A stretch of 61,725 nt of DNA, from contig CAMBKF010000006.1 of the NCBI GenBank assembly GCA_945868085.1, positions 1-61,725 on the forward strand. The letters run 5' to 3'. This DNA is from an uncultured Oscillibacter sp. (GTDB lineage: Bacteria; Bacillota; Clostridia; Oscillospirales; Oscillospiraceae). The notes under the pieces are model-generated. The model was not told the DNA's origin, searched no databases, and saw only the letters and a list, made by a program, of their open reading frames with translations. Positions 14,014 to 52,359 of this stretch are shown piece by piece. The number at the start of each line of letters is the position of its first letter. Position 1 is the first letter of the stretch. The translations under genes and the position numbers were made by a program.

Positions 14014-14685
14014 ATGGAAGCGACCAGTAATGTTCTATTTTCCATCGGCCCCCTGGAGGTGACGAAAACCGTTGTCACCATGTGGGTCATCATCGCTGTG
14101 CTGGGCCTGGTGTCATGGCTGGCTACCCGGCGGCTGAAAATGGTCCCCGGACCCATTCAGAGCGCGGCGGAAATGGCGGTGAGCAAGCTGCAGGATTATT
14201 TCACCGGCACCATGGGGCGCGATAACGCCCGCCGGTACTTCCCTGTGATGGCCACCTTCTTCATTTTCATTGTTGTGAGCAACTACTCCGGCATTCTGCC
14301 CGGGGCGGGCCACGGCTTCGCCGTGCCTACGGCCAACCTGTCCACCACGGCGGGCCTGGCGATCATCGCCTTCTTCACCACCCACATCGTGGGCGTGAAG
14401 CGCCGGGGCGTGCTGGGGTATCTGAAGACATTCATTTCCCCCTTTGTCCTGATGCTGCCGCTGAACCTCATCGAGCAGGTGGTGCGGCCGTTTTCCCTGG
14501 CCCTGCGACTGTACGGCAATATGTACGGAGAGGAAATGGTCACCGAGCAGCTCAAGGGTATCTTCCCCCTGCTGCTGCCCCTTGTCATGCAGGTGATGAG
14601 CCTGCTGTTCTGCCTGATCCAGGCGGTGGTGTTCACCATGCTGCTGTCCATCTATATTGAGGAAGCTGTGGGCGAGGAACACTGA
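14014..14685 (+). CDS. atpB: F-type ATP synthase subunit a
   Basis: A 223-residue membrane subunit that forms the ion half-channels beside the c ring. The essential arginine is visible in PFSLALRLYGNMYGEE (helix 5 of the family), with PLNLIEQVVRPFS before it and a final LIQAVVFTMLLSIYIEEA helix. Length is at the short end of the bacterial range, as usual in Clostridia. It lies 17 bp after the atpI-like gene and 54 bp before the c subunit. Confidence 0.95.
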   Translation: MEATSNVLFSIGPLEVTKTVVTMWVIIAVLGLVSWLATRRLKMVPGPIQSAAEMAVSKLQDYFTGTMGRDNARRYFPVMATFFIFIVVSNYSGILPGAGHGFAVPTANLSTTAGLAIIAFFTTHIVGVKRRGVLGYLKTFISPFVLMLPLNLIEQVVRPFSLALRLYGNMYGEEMVTEQLKGIFPLLLPLVMQVMSLLFCLIQAVVFTMLLSIYIEEAVGEEH

Positions 14686-14739
14686 TACAACTGATACTTA
14701 CTATTTATAAATTTTGGAGAAACTTTGGAGGAAAGAATT

Positions 14740-14970
14740 ATGACGGCATCCGCAATTATCGCACTGGCAGCCGCTTTGGCTGTGGCTCTGAGCACCATCG
14801 GCCCCGCTATCGGACAGGGCCTTACAGCATCCAAGGCCATGGAGGCCATGGCCCGTCAGCCTGAGGCTGCCAGCAGCATCCGTTCCAGCATGATCATCGC
14901 CCTGGCGCTGATGGAGGCCCTGACCATTTACGGCCTGCTCATTGCCTTTATGCTGATCGGCAAGATTTGA
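14740..14970 (+). CDS. atpE: F-type ATP synthase subunit c
   Basis: A 76-residue hairpin of two helices joined by the polar loop ARQPEA (38-43). The ion-carrying carboxylate is E59 in helix 2. P22 and Q26 in helix 1 and Y64 in helix 2 sit where Na+-translocating rings have Pro28, Gln32 and Tyr70, but the residue after the glutamate is Ala60 where Na+ rings need Ser or Thr. The ring is therefore more likely proton-coupled although it has half of a Na+ signature. The ATG start follows GGAGGAAAG. Confidence 0.95.
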   Translation: MTASAIIALAAALAVALSTIGPAIGQGLTASKAMEAMARQPEAASSIRSSMIIALALMEALTIYGLLIAFMLIGKI

Positions 14971-15007
14971 TCGACCCCCTGAGAGAAAAAGTAAGGAGGC
15001 ACACGCA

Positions 15008-15448
15008 TTGAGCATTAATGTGTCAGAAGTGATTTGGACCATCGTTTGCTTTTTCGCGTTGCTGTTTGTGCTGAAAAAGTTCCTGTTTGACCCGCTGATC
15101 CGGTTTATGGAGCAGCGCCAGGCGGCCATTGACCAGGGCCTTGAAAAGGGCCGAGATGCTCAGCGGAAAAAGGACGAAAACGACGCCGCGCTCCGGGAGA
15201 GCTGGAAGGAGCGCAGCGTGGAGGCCAAGCAGCTTCTCGCGGAAGGGAAGAAAACCGATGATCAGGAACGCGCCTGGGTGCTGGACAGCGCACAGAAAGA
15301 GGCGAATGAAGCACTGCAGGAGGCAAACAAGCGCATCGAGCAGGAACGCAGGCAGGTGTGCGCGGATGCCCAGGAGCAGCTGCCGCAGCTGGTTTCCGTC
15401 CTGACGAGGCAGCTTTTGAGCGGCGACGCCGGCGGAGAGGAGCGGTGA
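15008..15448 (+). CDS. atpF: F-type ATP synthase subunit b
   Basis: A 146-residue stator subunit: one N-terminal membrane helix ([19 protein letters not shown], about 9-27), then a long charged coiled coil to the C-terminus. It begins with TTG; this is supported by AAGGAGG 8 nt upstream and by the lack of any in-frame ATG. It is followed after only 7 nt by a second b-like polypeptide that is fused to delta and alpha sequences, so the operon encodes two kinds of b arm. Confidence 0.9.
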
Positions 15449-15455
15449 AACGGAA

Positions 15456-17735
15456 ATGCATTTGAAAGATATTCTGTTTGCGGTCGCAAACTTTCTGATT
15501 CTGTTCGGCGCCCTGTTCTTTATCACCCGCAAGATGATCATCCGGATGTTCCGGGAGCGCAAGGAAAAGATCGCCGGAGAGCTGGACAAGGCGAAAAAGG
15601 CGGAGGAAGATGCCGCCGCCCTGGAAAGCCAGGTCGACCGGGACAAGGAACAGGCCCGGCAGCAGGAAAAACAGCTGCTGGAGGACACGCAGCGGCAGGT
15701 GGAGGAAAACAGGGTCTGCGCCGCCGGCAGCAGCCAGGAGGCAGCCAATGTGCTGCGCCAGAGCGCTGCGGAGCGGGAGCGGCAGCTGCGGGCCATCATG
15801 CACGAGGAGGTCAGCGCCCAGGTCGTCCGCCAGGTGGCGGAGGAGACCGGCAAGGCCCTGCGAAAGGAAGAATACGCAGCCCGGCGCGCGGCGCTGGCGG
15901 ATGCGTTCATTGAAAAGGCCGGGAAGATGGTCACGGCCCGGCCCAGCGACATCCTGACCCTGGCGGAAGGAAAGAAGCTGGCGGTCACCGTCACCGGCGC
16001 GGAGCCGCTGACGGAGGAGCAGACCGAAAAGCTGCACCGGACCCTGACGGATGTGTTTGCCGCTGCCTGCAAGGAGGCAGGGGAGGATGCACCCCGGGGA
16101 GAGATCGTTGACCTGTATAGCGAGACGGACGAGAGCGTGATCGCCGGCGTGCGCCTGCGCGTAGGTGACACCGTGTATGACGGCAGCGCAGCCCGCTGCC
16201 TGGAGCGCCTGGTACAGCGGGCGGAGCAGAGCGGTGACGAGAGCGGCCGGTCCGTGCTGGACGGCGTGCGCGGTTTGCTGTCTTCGGCCGACGGGTCCGT
16301 GGATATTTACCAGGTGGGACAGGTCATCAGCGTGTCCGACGGTATCTGCCGGGTGTCCGGCCTGGCCGATGTAATGGCCGGAGAAATGCTGGAATTCAAG
16401 GGCGACCTCCGGGGCATGGTCATGGACCTGGATCAGGACAACGTGGGCGTTGTGCTGCTGGGCCAGTTCGCCGGCATTCAGGAGGGCGATCTGGTGCGCC
16501 GCACGGGCCGCATCATTGAAGTGCCCGTGGGCGAGGGAATGCGCGGCCGCGTGGTGGACGCTCTGGGCCGCCCGGTGGACGGCAAGGGACCCATTACGCC
16601 CGACGGCTATCGGGCTGTGGAGAGCCCCGCCCCCAGCGTGCTGCACCGGCAGGGTGTCACCGTGCCCCTGCAGACGGGCATCAAGGCCATCGACGCCCTG
16701 GTCCCCATTGGCCGGGGCCAGCGCGAGCTGATCATTGGCGACCGCCAGACCGGCAAGACCGCCATCGCCCTGGACGCTATTGTCAACCAAAAGGGCAAGG
16801 ATGTTCTGTGCATCTATGTGGCCATCGGGCAGAAGGAGTCCACGGTGGCCAACGTGGTGCGTAAACTGACGGAGATGGGCGCCATGGACTATACCACCGT
16901 GGTGTGCGCCTCCGCTTCGGAGCCGGCGCCCATGCTGTACATCGCGCCCTATGCCGGCGCGGCTATCGGCGAATATTTCATGTATCAGGGCAAGGATGTG
17001 CTCATCGTATACGACGACCTGAGCAAGCAGGCGGCGGCCTACCGCGAAATTTCCCTGCTGCTGCAGCGTCCCCCCGGACGCGAGGCCTATCCCGGCGACG
17101 TGTTCTACCTGCACTCCCGGCTTCTGGAGCGGGCGGCGCGGCTGGATGAGGCATCCGGCGGCGGCAGCATGACCGCCCTGCCCATTATCGAGACCCAGGC
17201 GGGCGACATTTCCGCCTACATCCCCACCAACGTCATCTCTATTACCGATGGTCAGATCTTCCTGGAGACGGGCCTGTTCCACTCCGGTATCCGGCCGGCC
17301 ATCAACGTGGGCCTGTCCGTGTCCCGTGTGGGCGGCGCGGCTCAGATGCCGGCTATGAAACAGGTGGCGGGCCGTCTGCGCACGGACCTGGCACAGTACC
17401 GGGAGCTGGCATCCTTCGCCCAGTTCGGGTCCGAGCTGGACGCGTCCACCCAGTCTACCCTGTGCCGCGGCCAGCACATGACGGAGCTGCTGAAGCAGAA
17501 TCAGTTTGCCGCCATGTCCGTGGAGGATCAGGTCATTGCCATCTTCGCCGCTAACGAGGGTTACGCCGACGACGTGGCTTTGAGCGACATGCCCCGGTTC
17601 GAGCGGGAAGTGGTGGAGTTTGTGAAGCAGGCTATGCCGGAGCTGGTGGACGTCATCTGCGAGGGCAAGAAGATCCCCGGCGATATGCTGGAGAAACTGC
17701 GCGGCACGCTGAAGCGCTTTAAGGAGTCCTTTTGA
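15456..17735 (+). CDS. atpA: ATP synthase b-delta-alpha fusion protein
   Basis: One uninterrupted 759-codon frame holds three subunits that are normally separate. Residues about 5-25 are a membrane helix and 30-165 a charged coiled coil, as in subunit b. Residues about 172-250 match the delta/OSCP C-terminal domain ([10 protein letters not shown] ... [19 protein letters not shown]). From about residue 268 the sequence is alpha: [20 protein letters not shown], Walker A GDRQTGKT at 428-435, and the normal alpha C-terminus ending KRFKESF. The delta N-terminal helical domain and the usual alpha N-terminal helix are absent. No good internal ribosome-binding site precedes the alpha part; the nearest candidates are GTG codons at 16254 and 16266 without an SD. 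b-delta fusions are known in actinobacteria and in the alternate N-ATPases; fusion on to alpha is, as far as I know, not standard. Confidence 0.9.
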
Positions 17736-41470: not shown

Positions 41471-42328
41471 ATGCTGTCTGCAGCACTGTTTCTACTGGCC
41501 AACAGCCTGTTTCTGACTTTGCGCCTAACAGGGGATACCGGGTCGTTTCCCAAGCCTTTGAGCGCCGGGGAGGAGCGGATGTACTTAGAGCGCAGTCTGG
41601 CCGGGGATCTGGAGGCCCGGAACATTCTGGTGGAGCACAATCTGCGCCTGGTGGCGCACATTATTAAAAAGTACTATACCCAGGCGGCGGAGCAGGAGGA
41701 CCTGATCTCCATCGGCACCATCGGGCTCATCAAGGCCGTGGACACCTTCCGACCGGACCGAAAGATCCGCCTGGCCACCTACGCCTCCCGCTGCGTGGAG
41801 AATGAGGTGCTCATGTATTTTCGCAGCCGCAAAAAGCTGCAGGGGGAGGTGTCCCTGTCCGATACCATCGAGCCCGACGCCGCCGGGGGCGCCCTCAGCC
41901 TCATGGATGTGGTGGGCTGCGACGACACCATGCTCTCGGATATGGCCGACCGGGAGGAGCGCCTGCGCATCCGGGAGCTGGTGGGCCGCTGCCTCACGGA
42001 CCGGGAGGCGGAGGTGATCCGCCGGCGGTACGGACTATCCGGCCGCCTGCCGCAAACCCAGCGCCAGGTGGCTGCGGCCTTCGGCATCAGCCGCAGCTAT
42101 GTATCCCGCCGCGCTTACTGTAAGCACCCGGAGAGACTCGGTTTGATGCTGAAAATCGTTTCTGCTGCAAAAAACGATCGACCGATAATAAATTTTGCCT
42201 GCCCCTATTTTGACTACAAAAAATTCCAGTATCTTACAATTATTTACAAAAATATTGCTTTTTTTGCTGCAAAGGAAAATTCTTTCAAATTTTTATTCAA
42301 AATTTCGTTTTTAGCTATTGCATTTTGA
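41471..42328 (+). CDS. sigK: sigma-K, N-terminal part, interrupted by a 10.2-kb element
   Basis: Residues 1-213 of a sigma-70 family factor followed by 72 unrelated residues read from inside the element. It has a hydrophobic pro-sequence-like N-terminus (MLSAALFLLANSLFLTLRLT), then region 2 (EHNLRLVAHIIKKYY, EDLISIGTIGLIKAV, LATYASRCVENEVLMY) and region 4 up to FGISRSYVSR, where the match stops. EHNLRLVAHI and GISRSYVSR favour sigma-K over sigma-E. The missing end lies at 52288-52359. Start is set 7 nt after GGGAAAGGGGAG. Without excision the protein lacks the end of the -35 recognition helix region and is probably inactive. Sigma-K drives late mother-cell sporulation genes. Confidence 0.9.
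   Translation: MLSAALFLLANSLFLTLRLTGDTGSFPKPLSAGEERMYLERSLAGDLEARNILVEHNLRLVAHIIKKYYTQAAEQEDLISIGTIGLIKAVDTFRPDRKIRLATYASRCVENEVLMYFRSRKKLQGEVSLSDTIEPDAAGGALSLMDVVGCDDTMLSDMADREERLRIRELVGRCLTDREAEVIRRRYGLSGRLPQTQRQVAAAFGISRSYVSRRAYCKHPERLGLMLKIVSAAKNDRPIINFACPYFDYKKFQYLTIIYKNIAFFAAKENSFKFLFKISFLAIAF
42091..42124. other. left attachment site (attL) of the sigK element
   Basis: sigK sequence runs to the 14-bp core GCTATGTATCCCGC (42096-42109), which is repeated at the right end. The inner arm CGCCGCGCTTACTGTAAG (42107-42124) is the inverted partner of the right-end arm. Confidence 0.85.
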
Positions 42329-42346
42329 TGTGCATTGTGCTATAGT
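42318..42346 (+). promoter_or_regulatory. promoter at the left end of the element, upstream of sipW
   Basis: TTGCAT, 17 bp, TATAGT. About 30 nt downstream is a hairpin GGCTTATC...GATAAGC followed by TTTTT (42373-42401), which could attenuate the transcript before sipW. The stretch 42125-42320 is AT-rich and shows no gene. Confidence 0.55.
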
Positions 42347-42461
42347 TTGTCTTGACATTGAATTGCGTATTGGGCTTATCGCACAGGAGATAAGCTTTTT
42401 GCGGCTTTTACGGCTGCGCCGTCCGGCCAACGCAGAATAATCCCCGGGAGTACATATTATA

Positions 42462-43010
42462 ATGAGTCATTCGCTGAAAAAAGTTTGGAATGTAGTCAGC
42501 ACAGTGCTGGTGGTGCTGGTGGTGCTGCTGGCTGTGGCCCTGGTGGGCGTCCGGCTGGTGGGGCTGAATACATATGTCGTCCTTTCCGGCTCTATGGAGC
42601 CTACTTATCACACCGGCTCCATGCTCTATGTCAAGAAGGTGGACCCCCAGGACCTCCAGGTGGGCGATCCCATCACCTTCATGCTCAATGAGGATACCGT
42701 GGCCACCCACCGCATCATTGAGATCCTGCCCGACGAGGAGGACAGCTCCGTCCTCCGCTTCCGCACCCAGGGCGACGCCAACGACGCCCCGGACGGTACG
42801 CCCGTGCATTATAAAAATGTCATCGGCAAGCCCGTGTTTTCCGTACCCTATTTGGGGTATTTTGCAAACTTCGTGCAGAACCCGCCGGGGCTGTATTTTG
42901 CCATCGGCTTTGCCGTGGTGCTGGTTCTGCTGGTGTTCCTGCCCGACCTGCTGGATGACAGCGGAAAAAAGGGCAAGCGCGTCGCGGAGGATCCCGCGGC
43001 CCATAACTAA
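42462..43010 (+). CDS. sipW: signal peptidase I, SipW type
   Basis: A 182-residue ER-type signal peptidase: N-terminal helix (VVSTVLVVLVVLLAVALVGV), catalytic Ser44 in LSGSMEPTYHTGS, and His83 in ATHRIIEI in place of the Lys of ordinary bacterial type I enzymes, then a C-terminal membrane helix. In Bacillus SipW processes TasA and TapA, the biofilm amyloid fibre proteins. Here it is the first gene of a run whose next members carry SipW-type leader sequences, so it is very likely their dedicated peptidase. The symbol refers to the type. Confidence 0.92.
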   Translation: MSHSLKKVWNVVSTVLVVLVVLLAVALVGVRLVGLNTYVVLSGSMEPTYHTGSMLYVKKVDPQDLQVGDPITFMLNEDTVATHRIIEILPDEEDSSVLRFRTQGDANDAPDGTPVHYKNVIGKPVFSVPYLGYFANFVQNPPGLYFAIGFAVVLVLLVFLPDLLDDSGKKGKRVAEDPAAHN

Positions 43011-43066
43011 GGGGGTAACGCCGCAAGGCTCCCATATATATTATTCTTTATCAGGAGGTTTTTGTG

Positions 43067-43876
43067 ATGAAAGCAAAAACAAAGACAAAGGCACTGCTGA
43101 TGTCTCTGTGCGCGGTGTTGCTCGTGGCCGCTTCCGTGCTGGGCACCATGGCGTATTTGACGGACAGCAAGGATGTCAAGAACACCTTTACTGTCGGTAA
43201 TGTTGCCATCAAGCTGGACGAGGCGAAGGTTGACGAGAACGGCAACCCGGTGGACAAGGATGGCAAAGTTGTCGATAAGACCGAAGCTCCCCGCGTCACC
43301 GAGAACAAGTACAAGCTGCTGCCCGGTCACGTCTATGTGAAGGATCCTACTGTTACGGTGGTGGCACCCAGCGTGGAGTCCTATGTCCGCATGAAGGTCA
43401 CCTTCAACAATGCTTCTGAGCTTATCAAGATCTGCACGGATCCTAAATATGCGGATGAAGTGACCGGACTGGAAAATGCATTTCCTGAAGTCCGCATGCT
43501 CAAGTTCAGCACGAATTCTGAACTGTTCTGGATTTCTCCGCTGCATCCTGAAAACGGTACGTTCGACATGGAGGACGGCATCGACAATCCCAAGTACTGC
43601 ATCTATGATCAGAAGGCCGACACCCTGACCTACATCTTCTACTATGCAGACGAACTGGGCGGTACTGATACTGTTACTGCTGCTGACACAGATGTCGTGC
43701 TGCCTACTCTGTTCGATGAGATCACGCTGCCTGATTGGGTGGACGGCGATCAGCTTGCCAAACTCAAGGATCTCAAGATCACCGTGGTGGCCGAGGCTAT
43801 CCAGGCGGACGGCTTTGACGATGCTGACGAAGCCTGGGCTGCCTTTGATGCGCAGATGGCCAGAACCAACGGCTGA
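43067..43876 (+). CDS. TasA/camelysin-like exported protein 1
   Basis: A 269-residue secreted protein. The leader has a basic start, a hydrophobic core and the cleavage-region pattern LGTMAYLTDSKDVKNTFTVG, which is the SipW-substrate hallmark (GTLAYFTD...NTFTVGNV). The mature part is beta-rich and acidic, ending QADGFDDADEAWAAFD, a tail echoed in the other paralogues (AIQADGF). No membrane anchor or sortase motif. By family, a structural surface-fibre or camelysin-like protein; metallopeptidase activity of camelysins is not evident (no HEXXH). Start ATG with AGGAGG 8 nt upstream. Confidence 0.85.
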   Translation: MKAKTKTKALLMSLCAVLLVAASVLGTMAYLTDSKDVKNTFTVGNVAIKLDEAKVDENGNPVDKDGKVVDKTEAPRVTENKYKLLPGHVYVKDPTVTVVAPSVESYVRMKVTFNNASELIKICTDPKYADEVTGLENAFPEVRMLKFSTNSELFWISPLHPENGTFDMEDGIDNPKYCIYDQKADTLTYIFYYADELGGTDTVTAADTDVVLPTLFDEITLPDWVDGDQLAKLKDLKITVVAEAIQADGFDDADEAWAAFDAQMARTNG

Positions 43877-43981
43877 TAACTCCCTGCTGACTTCGTTTCC
43901 GACAGATAAATGGAGTTCAGGCTCCGGCGTCTGTTGAAATAAAATTCATTACAAGCATTTTAAGGAAAGGAAGAAAAAATC

Positions 43982-44524
43982 ATGAAAAAGAAAGTAATTT
44001 CTATCGTGGCAGTCGTCCTGGTGCTGTGCTGCGCCATCGGCGGCACCCTGGCTTGGCTGGCAGATAAGACCGACTCTGTGGTGAACACCTTTACTGTCGG
44101 CGACATCAACATCGACCTGGACGAGAGCAAAAATCTTGACCTGAAGATGGTGCCCGGCAAAACCATTACCAAGGACCCGTTTGTCAAGGTTGAGGCTAAT
44201 TCCGAGGCCTGCTGGCTGTTCGTGAAGGTGGAGAAGTCTACAAACTTTGATGACTTTATGACCTATGCTATTGCAGACGGTTGGACCGCACTTCCCGGTG
44301 TGGATGGCGTTTACTATCGTCAGGTAGCTGCTACTACTGCGGCTGTTACTTTCCCTGTACTGGCGGGCAATACCGTAACCGTCAAGAACGACGTTACCAA
44401 GACGATGCTGAACGATTTGACTGCTGCCACCTATCCCACTCTGACCTTCACGGCTTATGCTGTGCAGAGCGATGGCATTACCGATGTGGCAACTGCTTGG
44501 GCTGAGGCACAGAAGGCGGTCTAA
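43982..44524 (+). CDS. TasA/camelysin-like exported protein 2
   Basis: A 180-residue secreted protein with leader ending IGGTLAWLADKTDSVVNTFT and VGDINIDLDES after it. The mature domain (VPGKTITKDPFVKVEANSEA, LFVKVEKSTNF) has the TasA-like beta-sandwich rhythm: MVPG-hairpin, K-x-P, and a long VTFT-type strand near the end. The shortest paralogue. It lies 105 bp behind paralogue 1 with GGAAAGGAAG upstream. Function inferred as surface fibre subunit or minor component. Confidence 0.85.
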   Translation: MKKKVISIVAVVLVLCCAIGGTLAWLADKTDSVVNTFTVGDINIDLDESKNLDLKMVPGKTITKDPFVKVEANSEACWLFVKVEKSTNFDDFMTYAIADGWTALPGVDGVYYRQVAATTAAVTFPVLAGNTVTVKNDVTKTMLNDLTAATYPTLTFTAYAVQSDGITDVATAWAEAQKAV

Positions 44525-44580
44525 ATCTCCCCGCATTTCCCCAGTTTATTCAATTACATAAATGAAAGGAAAAAAGAATC

Positions 44581-45408
44581 ATGACTAAGAAGAAGATCGT
44601 ATCTCTGTGCCTGGCGGCTGTGCTGGTCGTTATGGCCATCGCCGGCGCCACCGTGGCGTATTTCACTGACACCGATGCTAAGGACAATACCTTCACCGTT
44701 GGCAATGTGAAAATCGAGCTGCTGGAGTCCCAGTACCACCGCGTCAATGCTGGTAAGGGCAATGCCGTTGGTCAAACGGAACCTTTAATGGGCGGCTATC
44801 TGTGGGCAGCTGACGTGGATATGCAGGGCACTCCCGATAACACCCCCAACTACGTTACCTCCGGCGAGGTTTGGGATGGCCAGTACTTCTCCGATGCGCA
44901 GATTGAAGCCGATGCCGCAGCCTACAAGGAAGGCTACTTCCAGGAGCACAGCCAGAACATGGTTCCCGGTGCTAACGTTCGCAAGAACCCCTATGTGAAG
45001 AACATCGGTGCCAACGATGCGTATATCCGCATCCGCACGCTGATTCCCGTATCCCTGTTTGATGTCATCGACAAGGGCCCTTCCTATTGGACAACTACCG
45101 CTATGAACGAGGGTCAGGTCACCTCAAAGGCTGTCACCGCTTATAATACCGCTGGTGCAACAGATGTTAAGCAAGTTGAGCGCGATGGCATTATGTACTA
45201 TGAGTATGACTTTACCTTTGTAAAGCCTGTAAAGGCCGGCGAGTTGACCTTCTGGAACGTCTGGGGCAACATTGCTATCAATAAGGATGCAACGGCTGAG
45301 GATCTGGCAAATGTTGAATCCTTCGACGTTCTCTTCGAGGCTGACGCCATCCAGGCCGAGGGCTTCGCAGACGCTGCCGCTGCTTTCGCCGCTTTTGACG
45401 CTAAGTAA
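44581..45408 (+). CDS. TasA/camelysin-like exported protein 3
   Basis: A 275-residue secreted protein with SipW-type leader (AGATVAYFTDTDAKDNTFTV, then GNVKIELLESQ). The central VPGANVRKNPYVKNIGAND is the TasA-like PG-x-x-v-x-k-x-P strand pair. It ends QAEGFADAAAAFAAFDAK, related to the tail of paralogue 1. There is no anchor. Lies 56 bp behind paralogue 2; two hairpins follow it. Confidence 0.87.
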   Translation: MTKKKIVSLCLAAVLVVMAIAGATVAYFTDTDAKDNTFTVGNVKIELLESQYHRVNAGKGNAVGQTEPLMGGYLWAADVDMQGTPDNTPNYVTSGEVWDGQYFSDAQIEADAAAYKEGYFQEHSQNMVPGANVRKNPYVKNIGANDAYIRIRTLIPVSLFDVIDKGPSYWTTTAMNEGQVTSKAVTAYNTAGATDVKQVERDGIMYYEYDFTFVKPVKAGELTFWNVWGNIAINKDATAEDLANVESFDVLFEADAIQAEGFADAAAAFAAFDAK

Positions 45409-45420
45409 TTCCAAATCACC

Positions 45421-45490
45421 CCGGCCCTGCACCCCTTCGGGGGTGCAGGCCATAGGAGAGTACCCGGCACAGTGCGCCGGATATTCTCCT
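45421..45490 (+). other. two successive hairpins inside the fibre gene cluster
   Basis: GCCCTGCACCCC / GGGGTGCAGGCC with a short TTC loop, then an imperfect AGGAGAGTACCCGGC / GCCGGATATTCTCCT stem. Neither has a long T run, so they may slow decay or attenuate between paralogues 3 and 4 and give unequal expression. Confidence 0.55.
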
Positions 45491-45524
45491 ATGACCTCAA
45501 TACTGGAGAATGAGGAGTGTAATT

Positions 45525-46106
45525 ATGAAGAAAAGAAGCCTGAAAACCAAGCTGCTGGCGCTGTCCGTGGTGCTGATCCTGGCGGCGCTGTCGGTCTACG
45601 GCACCCTGGCCTATTTCACGGCCCAGGGCACCGCCCGGAACGTCATCACCACCGGCGATGTGAAAATCGCCCTGGAGGAGCGGATGCTCACTCCGGACGG
45701 TGAAAAGACCGTGCCCTTTGAGAATCAGCTGGGCGTTATGCCCGGCAGCGATGTCTCCAAGATCGTCACGGTGACCAACACCGGCGGCCAGCCCGCCTGG
45801 GTGCGTGTCTCCCTGGACAAGGCCATTGAGCTGGCCCGGGGCGTGGAGGGGGAGGCGGACCTTTCCCTGGTCACCTGCGATCTGAACACGGAGAACTGGA
45901 CGGAAAAGGACGGCTATTACTATTATAACGCCGCCCTGGAGCCGGGCCAGACCACCGAGCCGCTGTTCACTGCGGTCCACTTCGCCGAGACCATGAGCAA
46001 TATGTACCAGGAGAGCCGTGCCATTCTGCAGGTGAACGCCTTCGCCACGCAGACCGCGCACAACGGCGCCTCTGCCCTGGACGCCGCCGGCTGGCCTGAA
46101 GCCTGA
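45525..46106 (+). CDS. TasA/camelysin-like exported protein 4
   Basis: A 193-residue secreted protein; leader KKRSLKTKLLALSVVLILAA and cleavage region YGTLAYFTAQGTARNVITTG. The mature domain carries VMPGSDVSKIVTVTNTGGQP, the PG-x-x-v strand seen in CalY/TasA-like proteins, and DGYYYYNAALEPGQTTEPLF, a motif also found in paralogue 5 (DGYYYYTKPVAPGATPAANL). Higher GC than the neighbouring vWA gene. SD GAGGAG. Confidence 0.87.
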   Translation: MKKRSLKTKLLALSVVLILAALSVYGTLAYFTAQGTARNVITTGDVKIALEERMLTPDGEKTVPFENQLGVMPGSDVSKIVTVTNTGGQPAWVRVSLDKAIELARGVEGEADLSLVTCDLNTENWTEKDGYYYYNAALEPGQTTEPLFTAVHFAETMSNMYQESRAILQVNAFATQTAHNGASALDAAGWPEA

Positions 46107-46123
46107 GAAGGGAGGAAACGCAT

Positions 46124-48895
46124 ATGAAACTGAAAAAAGTCCTGTCCCTGCTGCTGGCGCTGGTCATGACCGTCAGCCTGCTGACCTTGCCCGCCCACGC
46201 GGAGGATGCCGGGGCCGAGGAGACGGGTACCACCGCCGCGGCAGACTATGCTGATGTTGCATTGTTCCGTGAGCTTTTGGCAGCGAAGCAGAGCGGTTCT
46301 CGGCTGCTCCGTGCACCTCGTGTTGCAGCAGCTCAAAACAATCCGGAAGGACTGGAACTGACCAAGTCTGTGACGGATAATCAGGACGGAACATATACGA
46401 TCAATCTGGAAGCCTATACCACTGGCGAGATTACGACCAGCACTGGTGTGAAGCCGGTTGACGTTGTGCTGCTTGTGGATATGTCAAGCAGTATGAACAA
46501 TAGTTTCTCTGAAGGCGGCTGGGTATATACGGAGGTTTATGAATTAAACAGAAATAGTATATACTATGTCCGATCAGGGTCTAGTTATAAAGAGGTCGAA
46601 TGGTGCAGTACATGTAAGACTTGGACAAATGGTTGTTGGACTGGATTGCGTCACCATCCTGGAACAGAATACACGCCTATGGAATCTGCAGATGATCCTA
46701 CCAGCGACAGTGTGCAGTTTTATACAAGAGAATACAGGCAGAGCATGACTCGCTTGGAAGCTTTGAAGCAGGCTGCAACCACCTTTATTACGGATGTCGC
46801 AAAAAAGGGCGGTAACCGTATGGCAATCGTGGGATTCCATGACTACGCTGTTTCACTTACCAACGGCTTTCTTGATGCGACTGCTAATGAGAATGCATTG
46901 AAAAATGCTGTTAATAACATTTCGATTGGAAAAAATTACCCTTACCCTGCAACCGATCATGACGATGCGTTAATTGAAGCAGAGGATTTGTTTAAAAATT
47001 CGGATGCGAGCGCGAAGGAACGGGAGCGCGTAGTTGTTCTGTTTACGGATGGCGAACCGGAACCGTACGACAGCAGCACCTGGAGCAGTACTACGGTAAA
47101 GAATGCGGTTGAATCGGCCTATCGGTTAAAAAATACCTATGAGGCAGCTGTATACTGTATTTCTGTTGCACCCGGAACGGATGCCGAGAGCATGTCTTCT
47201 CCGATGGATAAATACATGAGCTATGTGTCCTCCAATTACCCGAACGCGCATTATACAGGACAGACAATCAACAAGCGCAACTGGGAGAGTAATGACGATT
47301 TCGAGCGGCGCGTGGTGCAGCAGATCACCCCGGGCGCACAGGCGGACATCTCGAAGGGCAGCTTTTACCTGTCGGCCGGCAGTATAAATGCGTTGGAGAA
47401 CATCTTCAAGCAAATCGCTGATCAAACGGGTGGCTCCAGCATTTCGCTTGGAAGCAGTGCTGTGGTTAAAGACGTTGTTACACCGTACTTTAATATGCCC
47501 GATAACGTCAATGACGTTACAGTACAGGAAGTTGACTGCCTGAGCTACAATACGGCTACCGGAGAGGCCACATGGGAAACGGCTGGCACAAAGCTGGAAG
47601 ACGCAGTGACAATTGAAGGTTCGCAGGTCAACGTAACCAAATTTGACTTCAACCAGAATTTTATTTCTGAAAAAGGACGTGTTGAAGGCGATGTTACCCA
47701 GGCGGGTGACTTCCATGGCAGAAAGCTTGTAATTTCCTTTACTGTAACTCCGAAGGATGGTTTCCTCGGCGGCAACGGTGTGCCCACCAATGAAAGCGCT
47801 GGGATTTATGTGGACCCAGATGCAAAAGAGCCTCTTGCTACGGCCACGGCGGATCCGGTGGATGTTAAAATTGGTGAGGTTAAGGTTTCCGACATCCAAT
47901 CCAATGTATATTTGGGCGGCTATTACAGTGAGACTGTACCTGCGGAGCAGATTAAGGATCAAATGACTGTCACCTGTGGGGATGTAACGCTGGATTTGAC
48001 GAAAGAAAACTTCGGTTTGGAAGACTGGCAGCACGAATATGTGGATATTGTCGTCACTGTGAAGGACGCAAATGGAAATGATCTGACTGGCGGTATTGAT
48101 TCTCTGACGGAGGATGTTGCGTATACAGTGACCGTAACCGTAACGCCCAAACACACAGAGGGGAACGCTAAGGAACAGTCCGGTTCCGGAACAGATACGA
48201 TTCATGTGTTTAAACCGGAACTGACCTTCGCCGACGGCGAGGGCTACTATGGTGAAACCGTACCCGCAGCGTTTGACGGTAATCTGAAGAATACTAGATG
48301 GGTTCACTACACCAATGGTTCGGTTGACAAGGTCGCTGGCGACGAGGGCGTTTCTATGCTGAACGATCGACCCAACTTGGCATTGACCTACACACTGGAC
48401 AGCGACAAAATTGCTAACGGTAAGTACACCAAGGAGGATGTTCCTGTTGATGTGACCGTGAAAATCGGCAACAGGGATGTGACTGACTACACCACATTCC
48501 TGCACACAAATTGTGACGGTAAGATTTGCAATGTTCCCGAGGGTAAGGCGTTCCTGGTCCACATCAAGACCTGCACGCTGAGCATCACTAAAAAGGGCGG
48601 CGAGGGCGATGAGACTTATGTGTTCGATGTTTACAAGGACGGCGAGAAGTATTCCGAAGTGACCATCCAGGGCAATGGCATCGAAACGCTGGTGGAGCTG
48701 CCTGTGGGTACCTACACCATCCAGGAGGACACCAACTGGAGCTGGCGATATGGTACCCCCACTTACTCCGTTAAAGACGCTAACTTGAATTCGACAACGC
48801 CTATCGGCACTATCACCTGCACCAATACGAAGACTGTGGACAGCTGGCTCAACGGCTTCAGCACTGTGGTCCGCAACATCTTTGGTAAGAACTGA
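46124..48895 (+). CDS. von Willebrand factor A domain surface protein
   Basis: A 923-residue exported protein. Conventional signal peptide (LLLALVMTVSLLTLPAHA, about 9-26). vWA domain from about 112 with an intact MIDAS DMSSS at 119-123; it has an unusual early insertion with CSTCKTWTNGCW. VVLFTDGEPE is the later MIDAS-region aspartate. After about residue 440 come several beta-rich repeats (DVKIGEVKVSDIQSNVYLGG and similar), then a SpaA/pilin-like domain near the C-terminus (LSITKKGG ... ELPVGTYTIQED). It ends NGFSTVVRNIFGKN with no LPXTG or membrane anchor. Probably an adhesin or fibre tip. GC and codon use fall sharply after the first 60 codons. Confidence 0.88.
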   Translation: MKLKKVLSLLLALVMTVSLLTLPAHAEDAGAEETGTTAAADYADVALFRELLAAKQSGSRLLRAPRVAAAQNNPEGLELTKSVTDNQDGTYTINLEAYTTGEITTSTGVKPVDVVLLVDMSSSMNNSFSEGGWVYTEVYELNRNSIYYVRSGSSYKEVEWCSTCKTWTNGCWTGLRHHPGTEYTPMESADDPTSDSVQFYTREYRQSMTRLEALKQAATTFITDVAKKGGNRMAIVGFHDYAVSLTNGFLDATANENALKNAVNNISIGKNYPYPATDHDDALIEAEDLFKNSDASAKERERVVVLFTDGEPEPYDSSTWSSTTVKNAVESAYRLKNTYEAAVYCISVAPGTDAESMSSPMDKYMSYVSSNYPNAHYTGQTINKRNWESNDDFERRVVQQITPGAQADISKGSFYLSAGSINALENIFKQIADQTGGSSISLGSSAVVKDVVTPYFNMPDNVNDVTVQEVDCLSYNTATGEATWETAGTKLEDAVTIEGSQVNVTKFDFNQNFISEKGRVEGDVTQAGDFHGRKLVISFTVTPKDGFLGGNGVPTNESAGIYVDPDAKEPLATATADPVDVKIGEVKVSDIQSNVYLGGYYSETVPAEQIKDQMTVTCGDVTLDLTKENFGLEDWQHEYVDIVVTVKDANGNDLTGGIDSLTEDVAYTVTVTVTPKHTEGNAKEQSGSGTDTIHVFKPELTFADGEGYYGETVPAAFDGNLKNTRWVHYTNGSVDKVAGDEGVSMLNDRPNLALTYTLDSDKIANGKYTKEDVPVDVTVKIGNRDVTDYTTFLHTNCDGKICNVPEGKAFLVHIKTCTLSITKKGGEGDETYVFDVYKDGEKYSEVTIQGNGIETLVELPVGTYTIQEDTNWSWRYGTPTYSVKDANLNSTTPIGTITCTNTKTVDSWLNGFSTVVRNIFGKN

Positions 48896-48912
48896 GAAAG
48901 GAGGGAATGATG

Positions 48913-49506
48913 ATGTATAGAGGCAAACACGAAGCCCGGCGCAGCGGGAAAACAGCTCGCAAGGGTCGGCTCACCGCTATGATCGTTTCTGTGGTGCTGA
49001 TTTTGGCACTGGCTATCGGCGGTACCATCGCATGGATGAGCACCAAGACAGATTCGGTCGTCAACACCTTCAATCCCTCCCAGGTGACCTGTAGAGTTGA
49101 AGAGGAGTTTAACGGTGAGACCAAAACCAACGTGAACGTGACGAACACAGGAGACATCTCCGCATTCATCCGCGTCAAGCTGGTGTCCTACCGCACCAAT
49201 GAGGCCGGCCAGCACATCGGCGGCGTAGCGGAGGCCCCTACAGTCAATTTTGGCTATTATTGGACCTATTTTGACGGATATTACTATTACACCAAACCGG
49301 TTGCTCCCGGTGCAACGCCTGCAGCTAATTTGGCTGAGGCCATTGAGCTTGTTAAGGACTATGCGGATGCTGATGGCGGCCACCAGTCTATCGACGTCAT
49401 CGCAGAGGCCATTCAGGCAGGTCCTGAGGCGGCTGTCCAGGCGGCATGGGGTAATAACTTCTCGATTAAAGCTAATGGCGAGCTTTCCGTGACCAGTGGT
49501 AATTAA
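48913..49506 (+). CDS. TasA/camelysin-like exported protein 5
   Basis: A secreted protein of about 197 residues with an unusually long, basic N-region (RGKHEARRSGKTARKGRL) before the hydrophobic core and SipW-type site IGGTIAWMSTKTDSVVNTFN. The mature domain has VNVTNTGDISAFIRVKLV and DGYYYYTKPVAPGATPAANL, as in paralogue 4. Three ATGs in a row precede it; the third is 7 nt from GGAGGG and is preferred. It follows the vWA gene by 17 bp. Confidence 0.85.
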   Translation: MYRGKHEARRSGKTARKGRLTAMIVSVVLILALAIGGTIAWMSTKTDSVVNTFNPSQVTCRVEEEFNGETKTNVNVTNTGDISAFIRVKLVSYRTNEAGQHIGGVAEAPTVNFGYYWTYFDGYYYYTKPVAPGATPAANLAEAIELVKDYADADGGHQSIDVIAEAIQAGPEAAVQAAWGNNFSIKANGELSVTSGN

Positions 49507-49521
49507 GGGGGGTGGCGAGAT

Positions 49522-50181
49522 ATGAAGAAAACTTGTAAAGCAATTCTTTCGCTGGCCCTGACGCTGCTCATGCTTATGGGCCTCGCGACCACCGCCTTTG
49601 CTGACGGGCAGGTCACTTATGACGGCAACGCCCGGGAGTTCATCTTTGCACCCGGCAGCGAGTATTCTCCCACCGACCTGTTTACGGATTTCAAGAATGT
49701 CATGCCCGGTGACTCTATCACCCAGAAGGTCACCATTGACAATAAGGTGGAGAAGAACGTCAAGATCAAGGTTTACATGCGCGCCTTGGGCGCGGTGGAG
49801 GGCTCGGAGGAGTTCCTTTCTCAGATGAATCTGATCGTGAAGCTGGACGGCAACTCCCAACTGTTTGCCGCTCCCGCCGACCAGACCGCGCAGCTGAGCG
49901 ACTGGGTCTGCCTGGGTACCGTCTATTCCGGCGGCAAGATCGACCTGGATGTGACGCTGAATGTGCCCATCACCATGGAGAATGATTTCCAGGCTTCCGT
50001 GGGCTATCTAGATTGGCAGTTCAAGGTCGACGAGCTCCCGGTGGAGCCCGATGATCCCACCCCGCCTCCCACGGGCGATACCTTCAACGCGACCCTGTGG
50101 GTGATCGTGATGGTGGCCAGCCTGGCCGTGATCGTGTTCCTGTTTGTGAACCGCAAGCGGAAGAACAAGGCCGACAATTAA
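49522..50181 (+). CDS. exported protein with LPXTG-like anchor
   Basis: A 219-residue protein with a conventional signal peptide ([15 protein letters not shown]), a beta-rich domain ([20 protein letters not shown]), a proline-rich linker ([13 protein letters not shown]), a membrane helix ([18 protein letters not shown]) and a basic tail NRKRKNK. PPTGD before the helix and tail is a variant sortase-sorting signal, so it may anchor the fibre to the wall or membrane, analogous in role to TapA. No sortase gene is in the window. Last cargo gene before a terminator. Confidence 0.85.
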
Positions 50182-50207
50182 ACAAGGTAATGCAGCCACC
50201 GGCTGCA

Positions 50208-50252
50208 GCAGAAAGCGTCCGCATGGAACCCCATGCGGACGCTTTTTACACA
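50208..50252 (+). terminator. terminator of the fibre cluster
   Basis: AAAGCGTCCGCATG / CATGCGGACGCTTT stem with a short loop and TTTTTAC. The next 145 bp contain no gene. Confidence 0.85.
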
Positions 50253-50397
50253 ATGGGTCTGGAGGACGGCCTCCAAAATGAGACAGGCGGGGACAGATTC
50301 AACGGACTGAAACACTGCAGACAAACAGCGGAAATAAAAGCAAAAAAATAGCGGACTGTGCCATTGACACAGGTCACGGCAACATTTTTGATGCAAG

Positions 50398-50426
50398 TTG
50401 ACAACCTCTCGCTCATACGATATGAT
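50398..50426 (+). promoter_or_regulatory. promoter of the small protein and recombinase genes
   Basis: TTGACA, 17 bp, TATGAT. Overlapping it is CATACGATA (50414-50422), which fits the -10 consensus of the mother-cell sigma factors (sigma-K CATANNNTA; close to sigma-E CATACAAT). The -10 is so near the SD that the transcript start would fall within or next to it. Confidence 0.6.
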
Positions 50427-50440
50427 CCGGGAGGTGGCAT

Positions 50441-50635
50441 ATGAAAAATAAGAGCATTGTGGTTCGATGCAGCTACTCGGATACCGGACCGGCGCTGGAG
50501 GAGCTGGTCCGGGATTCCTTTCGGGTCTATCTGAAAAAGGAGCTGTCGCGCCAAGGAGGATACAGGGGCACACAAAAGGCGGATGCTGCTGGGCAAGGAC
50601 CCAGGCCGGGTGAGGATGCATGTTTCAGGAGATAA
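50441..50635 (+). CDS. small protein upstream of the recombinase
   Basis: A 64-residue basic protein (MKNKSIVVRCSYSDTGPALE, LEELVRDSFRVYL) behind GGGAGGTG with good spacing. Its end overlaps the recombinase start by 16 bp in another frame, so translation of the two is coupled. Not recognised as a named family. Small proteins next to large serine recombinases are often recombination directionality factors, as required for skin excision in Clostridioides, so that is a reasonable hypothesis and not more. Confidence 0.7.
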   Translation: MKNKSIVVRCSYSDTGPALEELVRDSFRVYLKKELSRQGGYRGTQKADAAGQGPRPGEDACFRR

Positions 50636-52266
50636 ATGACCCCGCGAATTACCGCGCGGCGCTGTATATCCGGCTGTCCAAGGAGGATGAGAGCGTGGGG
50701 CCGTCCCAAAGTGTGACCAATCAGCGGTCCATTCTGGATGAATTCGTGGAGAAACATCATTTGCAGGTCTATGATACCTACGTCGACGACGGTTGGAGCG
50801 GCACCAACTTTGACCGACCGGCGTTCCGGCGTATGATCGATGACATCGAGGCCAAAAAGGTCAATATGGTCATCACCAAAGATCTCTCCCGGCTGGGCCG
50901 AGACTACATTATGACCGGCCATTACATGGAACGGTATTTCCCGGAGCACCGGGTGCGGTACATCTCGCTCTTAGACGGCATTGACACCGGTGTGGATTCC
51001 AGCGCCAATGATATTACGCCCTTTCGGGCTATCATGAACGACATGTATGCCAAGGATATTTCCAAGAAAATCAAGTCCGTTAAGCGGGATAAGCAGCGCA
51101 AGGGAGAGTTCATCGGCGGAAAGCCGGTGTACGGGTACAAAATGCACCCCACGGAGAAGAACCGGATCGTCATCGATGAGGAGGCCGCGCCCACGGTGCG
51201 GCGGATTTTTTCTATGGCACTGGAGGGCATCAGCTGTCGAAAGATCGCCGCCGCCTTGAATGAAGAGGGCGTGCCCGCACCGTCTGTTTACTGCGGCTGG
51301 GATGCAGGGCACAAAGGCCCTTATGCAGGACAATGGAGCAGTGAGCGTATTTCCGAAATGCTGCGCAACGAAACATATATCGGCAGTATGGTGCAGGGCC
51401 GGCAGGTGAAGATCAGCTATAAATCGAAAAAATGCCTGCACCAGGACCGGGAAAACTGGGTCGTGGTGCCCCATACCCACGCACCGCTGGTTGATGAGGA
51501 GACTTTCCGCAAGGTGGGGCTGCTGGTCAGCAGCCGCAGGCATACTCGCTGCCGCACCTATGATTTTCTGCTGAAGGGATTGATATTCTGCCATGAGTGC
51601 GGCTATCCCCTGGCGGTGCTGAACCGACCCAACGCCAGGGGGGAGGATGTGCTGTACTTTGTCTGCCGGACGTATCAGCGCTTTACCAAGAGCGGCGTCT
51701 GCACGACTCACTATATCAAGGAAAAAATGGTGACGGATGCTGTGGTGGCCAAGGTGCGGGAGATTTGCACAGACCGCCTGAATAGCCAGGTCTTCCTGGC
51801 TATGGCGGAGGAAGCGGTCGAGGAAACAGTCCTGGAGAATGAAATCACAGCGGAAATGGCTGTTCTGCAGGAAAAAATAACCGAGTTGACAAAAAATCTC
51901 GACCGGATGTATACGGACCGGCTTTCCGGGCTGCTGCCGGAGGCGGACTTTCGGCGGATCTTTACCCAATTGAAAGACCAGCGGGGGCGGCTGGGGGAGC
52001 GCCTTCAGAAATTGGAGCAGGAGCAAAAATACCCGGTCAGTCAGAGAGACAGAGCGCTGGAATTGACCCGGCGATACAGGGAAACGGCCTGCACCGGACG
52101 GGAGCTGTTGGTGAGTCTGATCCAGCGGATCGAGCTGACGGAGAACCGGGAGGTGCTCATTCAGTTTCGCTTTGCAGAGCCGAAGAAAACGGATGCAATC
52201 ACAAATGGGGTATGTTATGCATCGCTCCCTGTGGCACAGCTTGAGCCGGGAAACTCCTTACAGTAG
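50620..52266 (+). CDS. large serine recombinase (SpoIVCA-like)
   Basis: A 548-residue site-specific recombinase. Catalytic Ser20 in AALYIRLSKEDES, resolvase core with ITKDLSRLGRDYIMTGHYME, a Recombinase domain (GKPVYGYKMHP ... RRIFSMALEGISCRKIAAAL), a zinc ribbon (IFCHECGYPLAVL ... CRTYQRFTKSGVC) and a C-terminal coiled coil (NEITAEMAVLQEKITELTKN). Domain order and length equal those of SpoIVCA, the skin excisionase. Its stop codon lies inside the right attachment arm, 8 bp before the sigK 3' fragment, so the element carries it at the very end, facing sigK's direction. Confidence 0.95.
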   Translation: MFQEINDPANYRAALYIRLSKEDESVGPSQSVTNQRSILDEFVEKHHLQVYDTYVDDGWSGTNFDRPAFRRMIDDIEAKKVNMVITKDLSRLGRDYIMTGHYMERYFPEHRVRYISLLDGIDTGVDSSANDITPFRAIMNDMYAKDISKKIKSVKRDKQRKGEFIGGKPVYGYKMHPTEKNRIVIDEEAAPTVRRIFSMALEGISCRKIAAALNEEGVPAPSVYCGWDAGHKGPYAGQWSSERISEMLRNETYIGSMVQGRQVKISYKSKKCLHQDRENWVVVPHTHAPLVDEETFRKVGLLVSSRRHTRCRTYDFLLKGLIFCHECGYPLAVLNRPNARGEDVLYFVCRTYQRFTKSGVCTTHYIKEKMVTDAVVAKVREICTDRLNSQVFLAMAEEAVEETVLENEITAEMAVLQEKITELTKNLDRMYTDRLSGLLPEADFRRIFTQLKDQRGRLGERLQKLEQEQKYPVSQRDRALELTRRYRETACTGRELLVSLIQRIELTENREVLIQFRFAEPKKTDAITNGVCYASLPVAQLEPGNSLQ

Positions 52267-52290
52267 CCGCGGCGCTATGTATCCCGCATT
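52257..52290. other. right attachment site (attR) of the sigK element
   Basis: Arm CTTACAGTAGCCGCGGCG (52257-52274), core GCTATGTATCCCGC (52274-52287), then sigK sequence. The circular form would join both arms around a 10-bp centre CTATGTATCC to give a 46-bp attP with inverted arms matching at 16 of 18 positions. Confidence 0.85.
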
Positions 52291-52359
52291 GAAAAGCGGG
52301 CGCTGCAAAAGCTGGAGGCGGCGCTGACGGAGGAGACGCCGCCAAGAAACAATAAATAA
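52274..52359 (+). CDS. sigK: sigma-K, C-terminal 23 codons (3' fragment)
   Basis: After the shared core this frame reads IEKRALQKLEAALTEETPPR then NNK and TAA, the normal continuation of SRSYVSR in sigma-K region 4.2. It has no ribosome-binding site and cannot be a gene alone. It is kept in frame with the N-terminal part across the predicted junction and has no mutation, which argues that the excised gene is used and under selection. Confidence 0.9.

Follow-up and report, generated by a model that had tools for sequence, protein, structure and literature searches.

The sigK gene of an uncultured Oscillibacter sp. is cut in two, within the window analysed here (positions 1 to 61,725 of contig CAMBKF010000006.1, GenBank assembly GCA_945868085.1), by a putatively excisable element of 10,178 bp (42103..52280, + strand, GT to GT). 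Judged from sequence, this is probably a cargo-carrying integrative element that acts as a skin-type developmental switch at a position near the 3' end of sigK, which we call site C. The 5' fragment of the gene (codons 1-213; 41471..42109, +) matches the TIGR02846 model with 246 bits, below the cut-off of 298.65, which was reached by none of the 32 genomes surveyed in the genus, those with an intact sigK included. The 3' fragment (codons 214-236 and the stop; 52288..52359, +) is recognised in the joined open reading frame (ORF). When the fragments are joined at the core of the attachment sites, a single SigK ORF of 236 aa without internal stop is obtained, and precise removal of the element is predicted to leave one open sigK gene. 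The initial annotation had proposed a sigK split in frame by an element of about 10.2 kb; both the split and its figure of 10,178 bp agree with our analysis. The locus is flanked by comEC/rec2 upstream and by a [FeFe] hydrogenase gene downstream.

The 14-bp sequence proposed to be shared by the two ends was found as GCTATGTATCCCGC in the attL core (42096..42109, +, central GT at 42101-42102) and in the attR core (52274..52287, +, central GT at 52279-52280). No further copy was present in the window with up to two mismatches. At this tolerance 0.39 copies are expected by chance, and at least two matches appeared in 7 of 100 shuffles, so that the repeat by itself is weak evidence. The split is considered real because the fragments join into SigK and because the same arrangement recurs at 73 of 80 related recombinases. 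On the element side, the cores are bordered by arms at 42107..42124 and 52257..52274 (both +), the two halves of the predicted attP inverted repeat. The recombinase gene (50620..52266, +) encodes a large serine recombinase of 548 aa in which the Resolvase, Recombinase and zinc-ribbon domains are all present (PF00239, PF07508 and PF13408, above cut-off). It adjoins the 3' end of the element as first described, with a distance from its stop codon to the core repeat of 7 bp instead of the 8 bp given then.

A scan of named genomes returned 477 relatives of this recombinase, of which the best 80 were used (one of them, L169, looks like the contig of genome G027 already in the genus survey). The recombinase end lay against sigK in 73 of these 80 loci, 63 times against the 3' tail and 10 times against a 5' fragment on the opposite strand; with the window and locus L076 added, the totals are 65 and 10 of 82. 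The seven remaining loci (L148, L153, L157, L174, L193, L211 and L213) could not be assigned. Two of them, L153 and L213, carry a cut sigK on the same locus, no sigK was seen on loci L157 and L174, and the source genomes of L148 and L193 carry an intact sigK. At the level of the bacterial family, 52 of 400 sampled genomes (the window's included), from 34 of 106 genera, had a match with an E value no higher than 1e-120. The sigK tail was present in 27 of the 29 family-level loci checked, a set that overlaps with the 80 named loci (L105 and L134, for example). Across gut Clostridia, this family of recombinases is thus linked to the sigK 3' end. In a tree of 76 recombinases, obtained by a quick method and with many weak forks, the orientation label takes six changes, and the copies of Blautia wexlerae and Choladousia (Lachnospiraceae) are nested among close copies from Oscillospiraceae.

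To test for a phage origin of the recombinase, phage sequences were compared with it. Among phage records, 29 matched the recombinase at E 1e-30, every one at less than 60% identity, and relatives were present on nine viral contigs, one of which has the sigK tail motif. Human faecal records labelled 'Bacteriophage sp.' (H30-H49) contain sigma factors whose match to SigK or SigE extends to about codon 214. One recombinase copy (L245, G689:C40, about 14260-15955) lies next to an unsplit attP-like site outside sigK, in a genome whose sigK is intact; an ORF recognised by eye as uvrB-like is found about 3.3 kb before it. We considered whether L148 might be an excised circle and rejected this, as the whole contig (L245) contains the uvrB-like ORF and its ends do not overlap.

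Both ends could be recognised in 18 elements, with sizes from 2.4 to 10.2 kb. The GT dinucleotide was common to attL and attR in all 18, and it makes up positions 1 and 2 of the Val codon in ISRSYVSR. In L170 and L202 the two sites have nothing beyond this GT in common. The predicted attP sites, too, are most symmetrical about the GT in 18 of 18 cases, with 12 to 19 of 22 positions paired. All 18 joins are in frame, an observation that adds little because heads and tails were chosen by motif and joined at one codon. Four of the 18 elements are reversed, and their cores are still direct repeats. An inversion switch was rejected for these four elements; six further reversed loci show a single end. 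The reversed elements, in which the recombinase end faces the sigK 5' fragment, are L145, L146, L147, L179 and L180, together with L186, L187, L200, L204 and L210. The smallest element (L166:9210-11610, 2.4 kb) contains little beyond the recombinase and a small ORF.

This small ORF is conserved upstream of the recombinase. In the window it encodes 64 aa (50441..50635, +) and is a candidate recombination directionality factor. An ORF of 37 to 64 aa was detected at this position in 75 of the 82 site-C loci, and in six of the seven misses the recombinase starts at most 61 bp from the start of the locus. As a control, 28 other serine recombinases from the genus were examined for such an ORF upstream, which gave three matches, with E values of 0.8 or worse. 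We then compared 53 dereplicated stretches upstream of the small ORF, the window's included. Of the 53, 50 have the motif CATA 13-50 bp ahead of this ORF, against a mean of 7.2 and a maximum of 14 in 200 shuffles (where a stretch held several copies, the one with a GACARGC box was taken). Within these 50 stretches a T occupies position CATA+7 in 46, and an A positions -19 and -18 in 40 and 41, respectively. The GACARGC box itself lies 14-34 bp before CATA in 17 of 53 stretches, for a shuffle maximum of 1. In the window, a promoter-like stretch (50393..50421, +) has GCAA at 50393 and CATACGAT at 50414-50421, with the spacing common in related loci. We take CATA to be the -10 sign of sigma-E and sigma-K promoters, and GACARGC presumably resembles a SpoIIID box. 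The spoIIID promoter of Clostridioides difficile reads ATA-N16-CATATATA (PMC3789822).

The state of the sigK fragments was assessed by the ratio of nonsynonymous to synonymous substitution rates (dN/dS). Compared with the intact gene of genome G021, the 5' fragment gave a dN/dS of 0.10; by this measure it is under purifying selection. The value of 0.37 for the 3' fragment says little because it rests on about 22 codons, in part beyond the stop of the relative. An intact second sigK, raised as a possible objection in the initial annotation, was not found by TIGR02846 profile search in the host metagenome-assembled genome (MAG), whose completeness is 84.5%. The MAG has two strong matches to this model, the split sigK and SigE, the latter above two curated cut-offs. 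It also encodes a SpoIIID homologue, with a score below the model cut-off. The presence of SigE and of the SpoIIID homologue in the host is counted in support of a developmental switch.

The organisation of the element is that of the skin elements of Bacillus subtilis and C. difficile: an in-frame split of sigK, a serine recombinase encoded at one end, and inverted repeats around a short core. As in the window, the C. difficile recombinase lies directly before the sigK 3' part. Excision of the C. difficile skin requires a 72-aa directionality factor under the control of SigE and SpoIIID (PMC5025042). The small ORF of the window stands directly before the recombinase, a genomic place that differs from that of CD1234 of C. 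difficile. Unlike the known skin elements, the window element cuts sigK at codon 213 and contains no recognised phage genes among the proteins scanned. The B. subtilis type of skin sits at a mid-gene AATGA, to which the window site does not correspond. The C. difficile insertion codon is not located in the passages available, so C. difficile may be cut at site C as well.

Elements of other kinds have also been described in this gene and in other sporulation genes. C. perfringens phage phiS63 is reportedly inserted in sigK by a recombinase. A recombinase-mediated prophage insertion in sigK is described for C. tetani ('site A'; PMC5553647), and Alicyclobacillus MMB025 has a sigK prophage with the core TCTC beside inverted repeats (PMC13141910). 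Unlike the window element these three are phages or prophages, likened to it here by description. In the Bacillus cereus group, excisable sigK inserts are located at nucleotide 195 in Bcbva, where the insert is non-phage, and at position 423, AATGA, in AH820, J7 and J62 (PMC10745906). The Bcbva position amounts to codon 65, near site A, and AATGA is a core of the site-B type (sites A and B are described below); in contrast to the window, the passages on this group report none at the sigK 3' end. The same principle with different target genes is seen for gin, a non-prophage element in gerE of B. cereus, and yin, in yabG of C. botulinum, serine-recombinase elements that split these sporulation genes (PMC5595907, PMC10747680). 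The available portions of the open-access literature (subscription papers and preprints lie outside it) contain no report of a sigK 3'-end insertion in gut Clostridia, nor of two elements in one sigK. The window element thus appears to be a skin-element variant at a sigK site not found in print, with the C. difficile site not mapped against it.

The anatomy of the locus, the joined frame, the recurrent site, the shared GT and the conserved small ORF with its CATA motif can all be read from the DNA. They would be consistent with the following mechanism. For the serine recombinase, the conserved sigK codons for SYVSRIE would be the attachment site, and in growing cells the element would be integrated and sigK broken. 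During sporulation, expression of the small ORF and of the recombinase would start in the mother cell from a promoter of the sigma-E type, perhaps with the help of SpoIIID, and the small protein may then serve as the directionality factor. attL and attR would recombine at the Val-codon GT, releasing the 10,178-bp element as a circle and making sigK one gene again. The developmental role in this scheme is supported indirectly, by the promoter motif and by the conserved sigK fragments; its timing, the part played by the small protein and excision itself are proposed.

Several observations weigh against such a switch. The predicted fold of the small ORF product is a single helix with a pLDDT of 71, a weak model that leaves its function putative. 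A sigma-A-like TTGACA-17-TATGAT with perfect spacing overlaps the promoter-like stretch of the window, and the GACARGC box is absent before the window's small ORF, though present in 17 of the 53 stretches. Searches of viral contigs with the attP pattern gave no match, and neither an excised circle nor a joined sigK was seen from the same organism. Finally, Oscillibacter is listed as asporogenous in a 2012 survey (PMC3533761). On the other side, Flavonifractor plautii is named as a spore-forming commensal (PMC8953710).

Some of these points would also be explained by an ordinary integrative island seated in a tolerable attB site, which excises at a low and unregulated level for its own spread while spores arise from the few excised cells. 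The cargo is variable and includes defence-like genes, the spread of closely related recombinases over Lachnospiraceae and Oscillospiraceae resembles that of a mobile element, and the sigma-A-like promoter and the recombinase copy beside the uvrB-like ORF outside sigK point the same way. However, such an island does not account for a CATA motif kept before the small ORF in nearly all upstream stretches, and we regard it as unlikely. That the insertion killed sigK, the fragments being remnants in an asporogenous lineage, is less likely still. The 2012 survey and the lack of a visible sigK in two of the 32 genus genomes would agree with this, whereas the low dN/dS of the 5' fragment, the short tails still recognisable next to the recombinase in 63 of 80 loci, and the intact recombinase and small ORF of the window do not. 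It is highly improbable that the truncated SigK is functional as it is and excision unnecessary. The cut comes late, and the 5' frame in the window stays open for 293 aa counted from an upstream ATG, but the cut falls in what we take to be the helix-turn-helix of region 4.2, and several other elements run into a stop no more than a few codons past the cut and yet keep the tail. A skin-type switch remains our preferred reading; comparison between loci supports its site, core and module strongly, and its sporulation control indirectly.

The genus survey, which comprised 32 genomes with that of the window, revealed sigK as a single open frame in 25, in pieces in five (G000, G009, G025, G026 and G027, with G025 yielding the 3' piece only) and in none of these forms in two (G015 and G029, no sigK seen by profile search). 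SigK and SigE matches were separated here by model range, with a direct SigE test for the window's copy only. The two sigK parts of the window thus do occur as one gene in relatives. The pieces end at three places: about codon 67 (site A), about codon 112 (site B) and codon 213 (site C). The core at site B is of the AATG/AACG type, and G009 is among the relatives cut there. At site C of G027, the recombinase is 71% identical to the window's, and attL and attR have ATGTATCCCGC in common. The claim that the window site differs from the classical one is borne out by this comparison of codon 213 with codon 112 in relatives of the same genus. The independent origin suggested at the same time fits, because the recombinases near sites A and B are only 19-24% identical to the site-C enzyme over the aligned parts; they also have N-terminal motifs of their own.

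Cuts at different sites can coexist in one gene. The 5' side is visible in 25 of the 80 loci, and seven of these begin at site B (L142, L147, L154 and L200) or site A (L145, L146 and L188). A whole-genome search of nine genomes, seven of which were chosen for looking doubly cut, showed that G680, G683, G684, G685 and G687 have, in addition to the cut at site C, two sigK pieces on the same contig; for G687, which is Oscillibacter sp. ER4, the recombinase of site C is on a separate contig. Six more genomes were chosen for contiguity or strong recombinase matches, and five of them were also cut at A or B, with G202 cut at site C only. Sites B and C are both cut in G108, a single contig rated 100% complete, and in G310; sites A and C are cut in G211 and G264; G055 is cut at A or B, with its recombinase on another contig. 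The sigK pieces of G108, G211, G264 and G310 read open up to the junctions. Judged by distances, the inserts at site C would measure about 22 kb in G108, 31 kb in G310 and 7 kb in G264. In G211 (Flavonifractor sp. An82; G211:C1:242257-363518, L267-L269) the second sigK piece lies about 103 kb from the site-C recombinase, a distance suggestive of a very large site-C insert of that size. In G026 the first piece stops at codon 67 and another starts at codon 79 (L071:8142-8249, G026:C18); the codons between, 68-78, could not be located. G027 shows boundaries at A, B and C, but its codons 68-108 were not recovered, so a four-piece gene is only inferred there. On single contigs, then, sigK can be found broken into three parts, and one of these contigs is a genome by itself.

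The cargo of the window element lies between the attL core and the small ORF. It begins with a SipW-like signal peptidase I (42462..43010, +; TIGR02228 above cut-off, the SipW model NF046067 below), followed by four ORFs with SipW-dependent-type signal peptides (43064..46106, +; individually 43064-43876, 43982-44524, 44581-45408 and 45510-46106), all above the TIGR04088 cut-off, two of which have camelysin-like matches (PF12389). Next are a 923-aa secreted protein with a VWA domain (46124..48895, +; PF13519 above cut-off), a BsaA-like ORF with a weak match (48907..49506, +; TIGR04090, 33 bits with the cut-off at 60) and a small surface-anchored-looking protein, also weakly matched (49522..50181, +; NF053819 below cut-off). 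With its SipW-like peptidase, secreted proteins and VWA protein, this cargo looks like a matrix-fibre-like operon. SipW/TasA cargo was rejected as a hallmark of the family, since the other fetched loci, many of which contain part of an element only, gave no match at E 1e-4. Homologues of the VWA gene occur in three other genus genomes (G001, G006 and G027), in G001 far from the intact sigK. NCBIfam and Pfam scans of eight cargo proteins revealed no phage structural or replication genes; general scans of the window proteins with these databases showed no relaxase, no search having been aimed at relaxases.

Single proteins identified in other elements include Fic, AAA/OLD-like ATPase, HerA, ORC-CDC6-like, glycoside hydrolase 2 and citrate-type transporter proteins. 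The AAA/OLD-like ATPase, HerA and Fic are defence-like cargo (L149:3867-5561, L160:4219-5961 and L137:4996-6030). A cluster of 11 ORFs, one member of which was identified, is present in 10 of the 18 elements (in two pieces in L156) and groups with a tyrosine integrase. A further ORF, 260-301 aa long, is common to seven of the 18 elements (L137:7514-8311, with relatives in L145, L147, L149, L154, L156 and L170); for the copy in L137, Pfam, PADLOC and PHROGs gave no match.

Beyond the single split gene first noticed, the analysis reveals a widespread recombinase family and a sigK that can be interrupted at two places simultaneously. The family offers naturally occurring attB and attP sites together with a putative directionality factor, and cultured commensals are available as test systems for multi-site programmed DNA excision. 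Because the gene lies in fragments, sigK, and hence spore-forming ability, may be mis-scored in genome surveys. It seems fairly plausible that sigma-K of gut Clostridia is often assembled from three, perhaps four, gene pieces through two or three unrelated serine recombinases, in the manner of an AND gate. If so, all excisions would be needed in one mother cell before sigma-K appears, and sigK would be a shared dock for islands.

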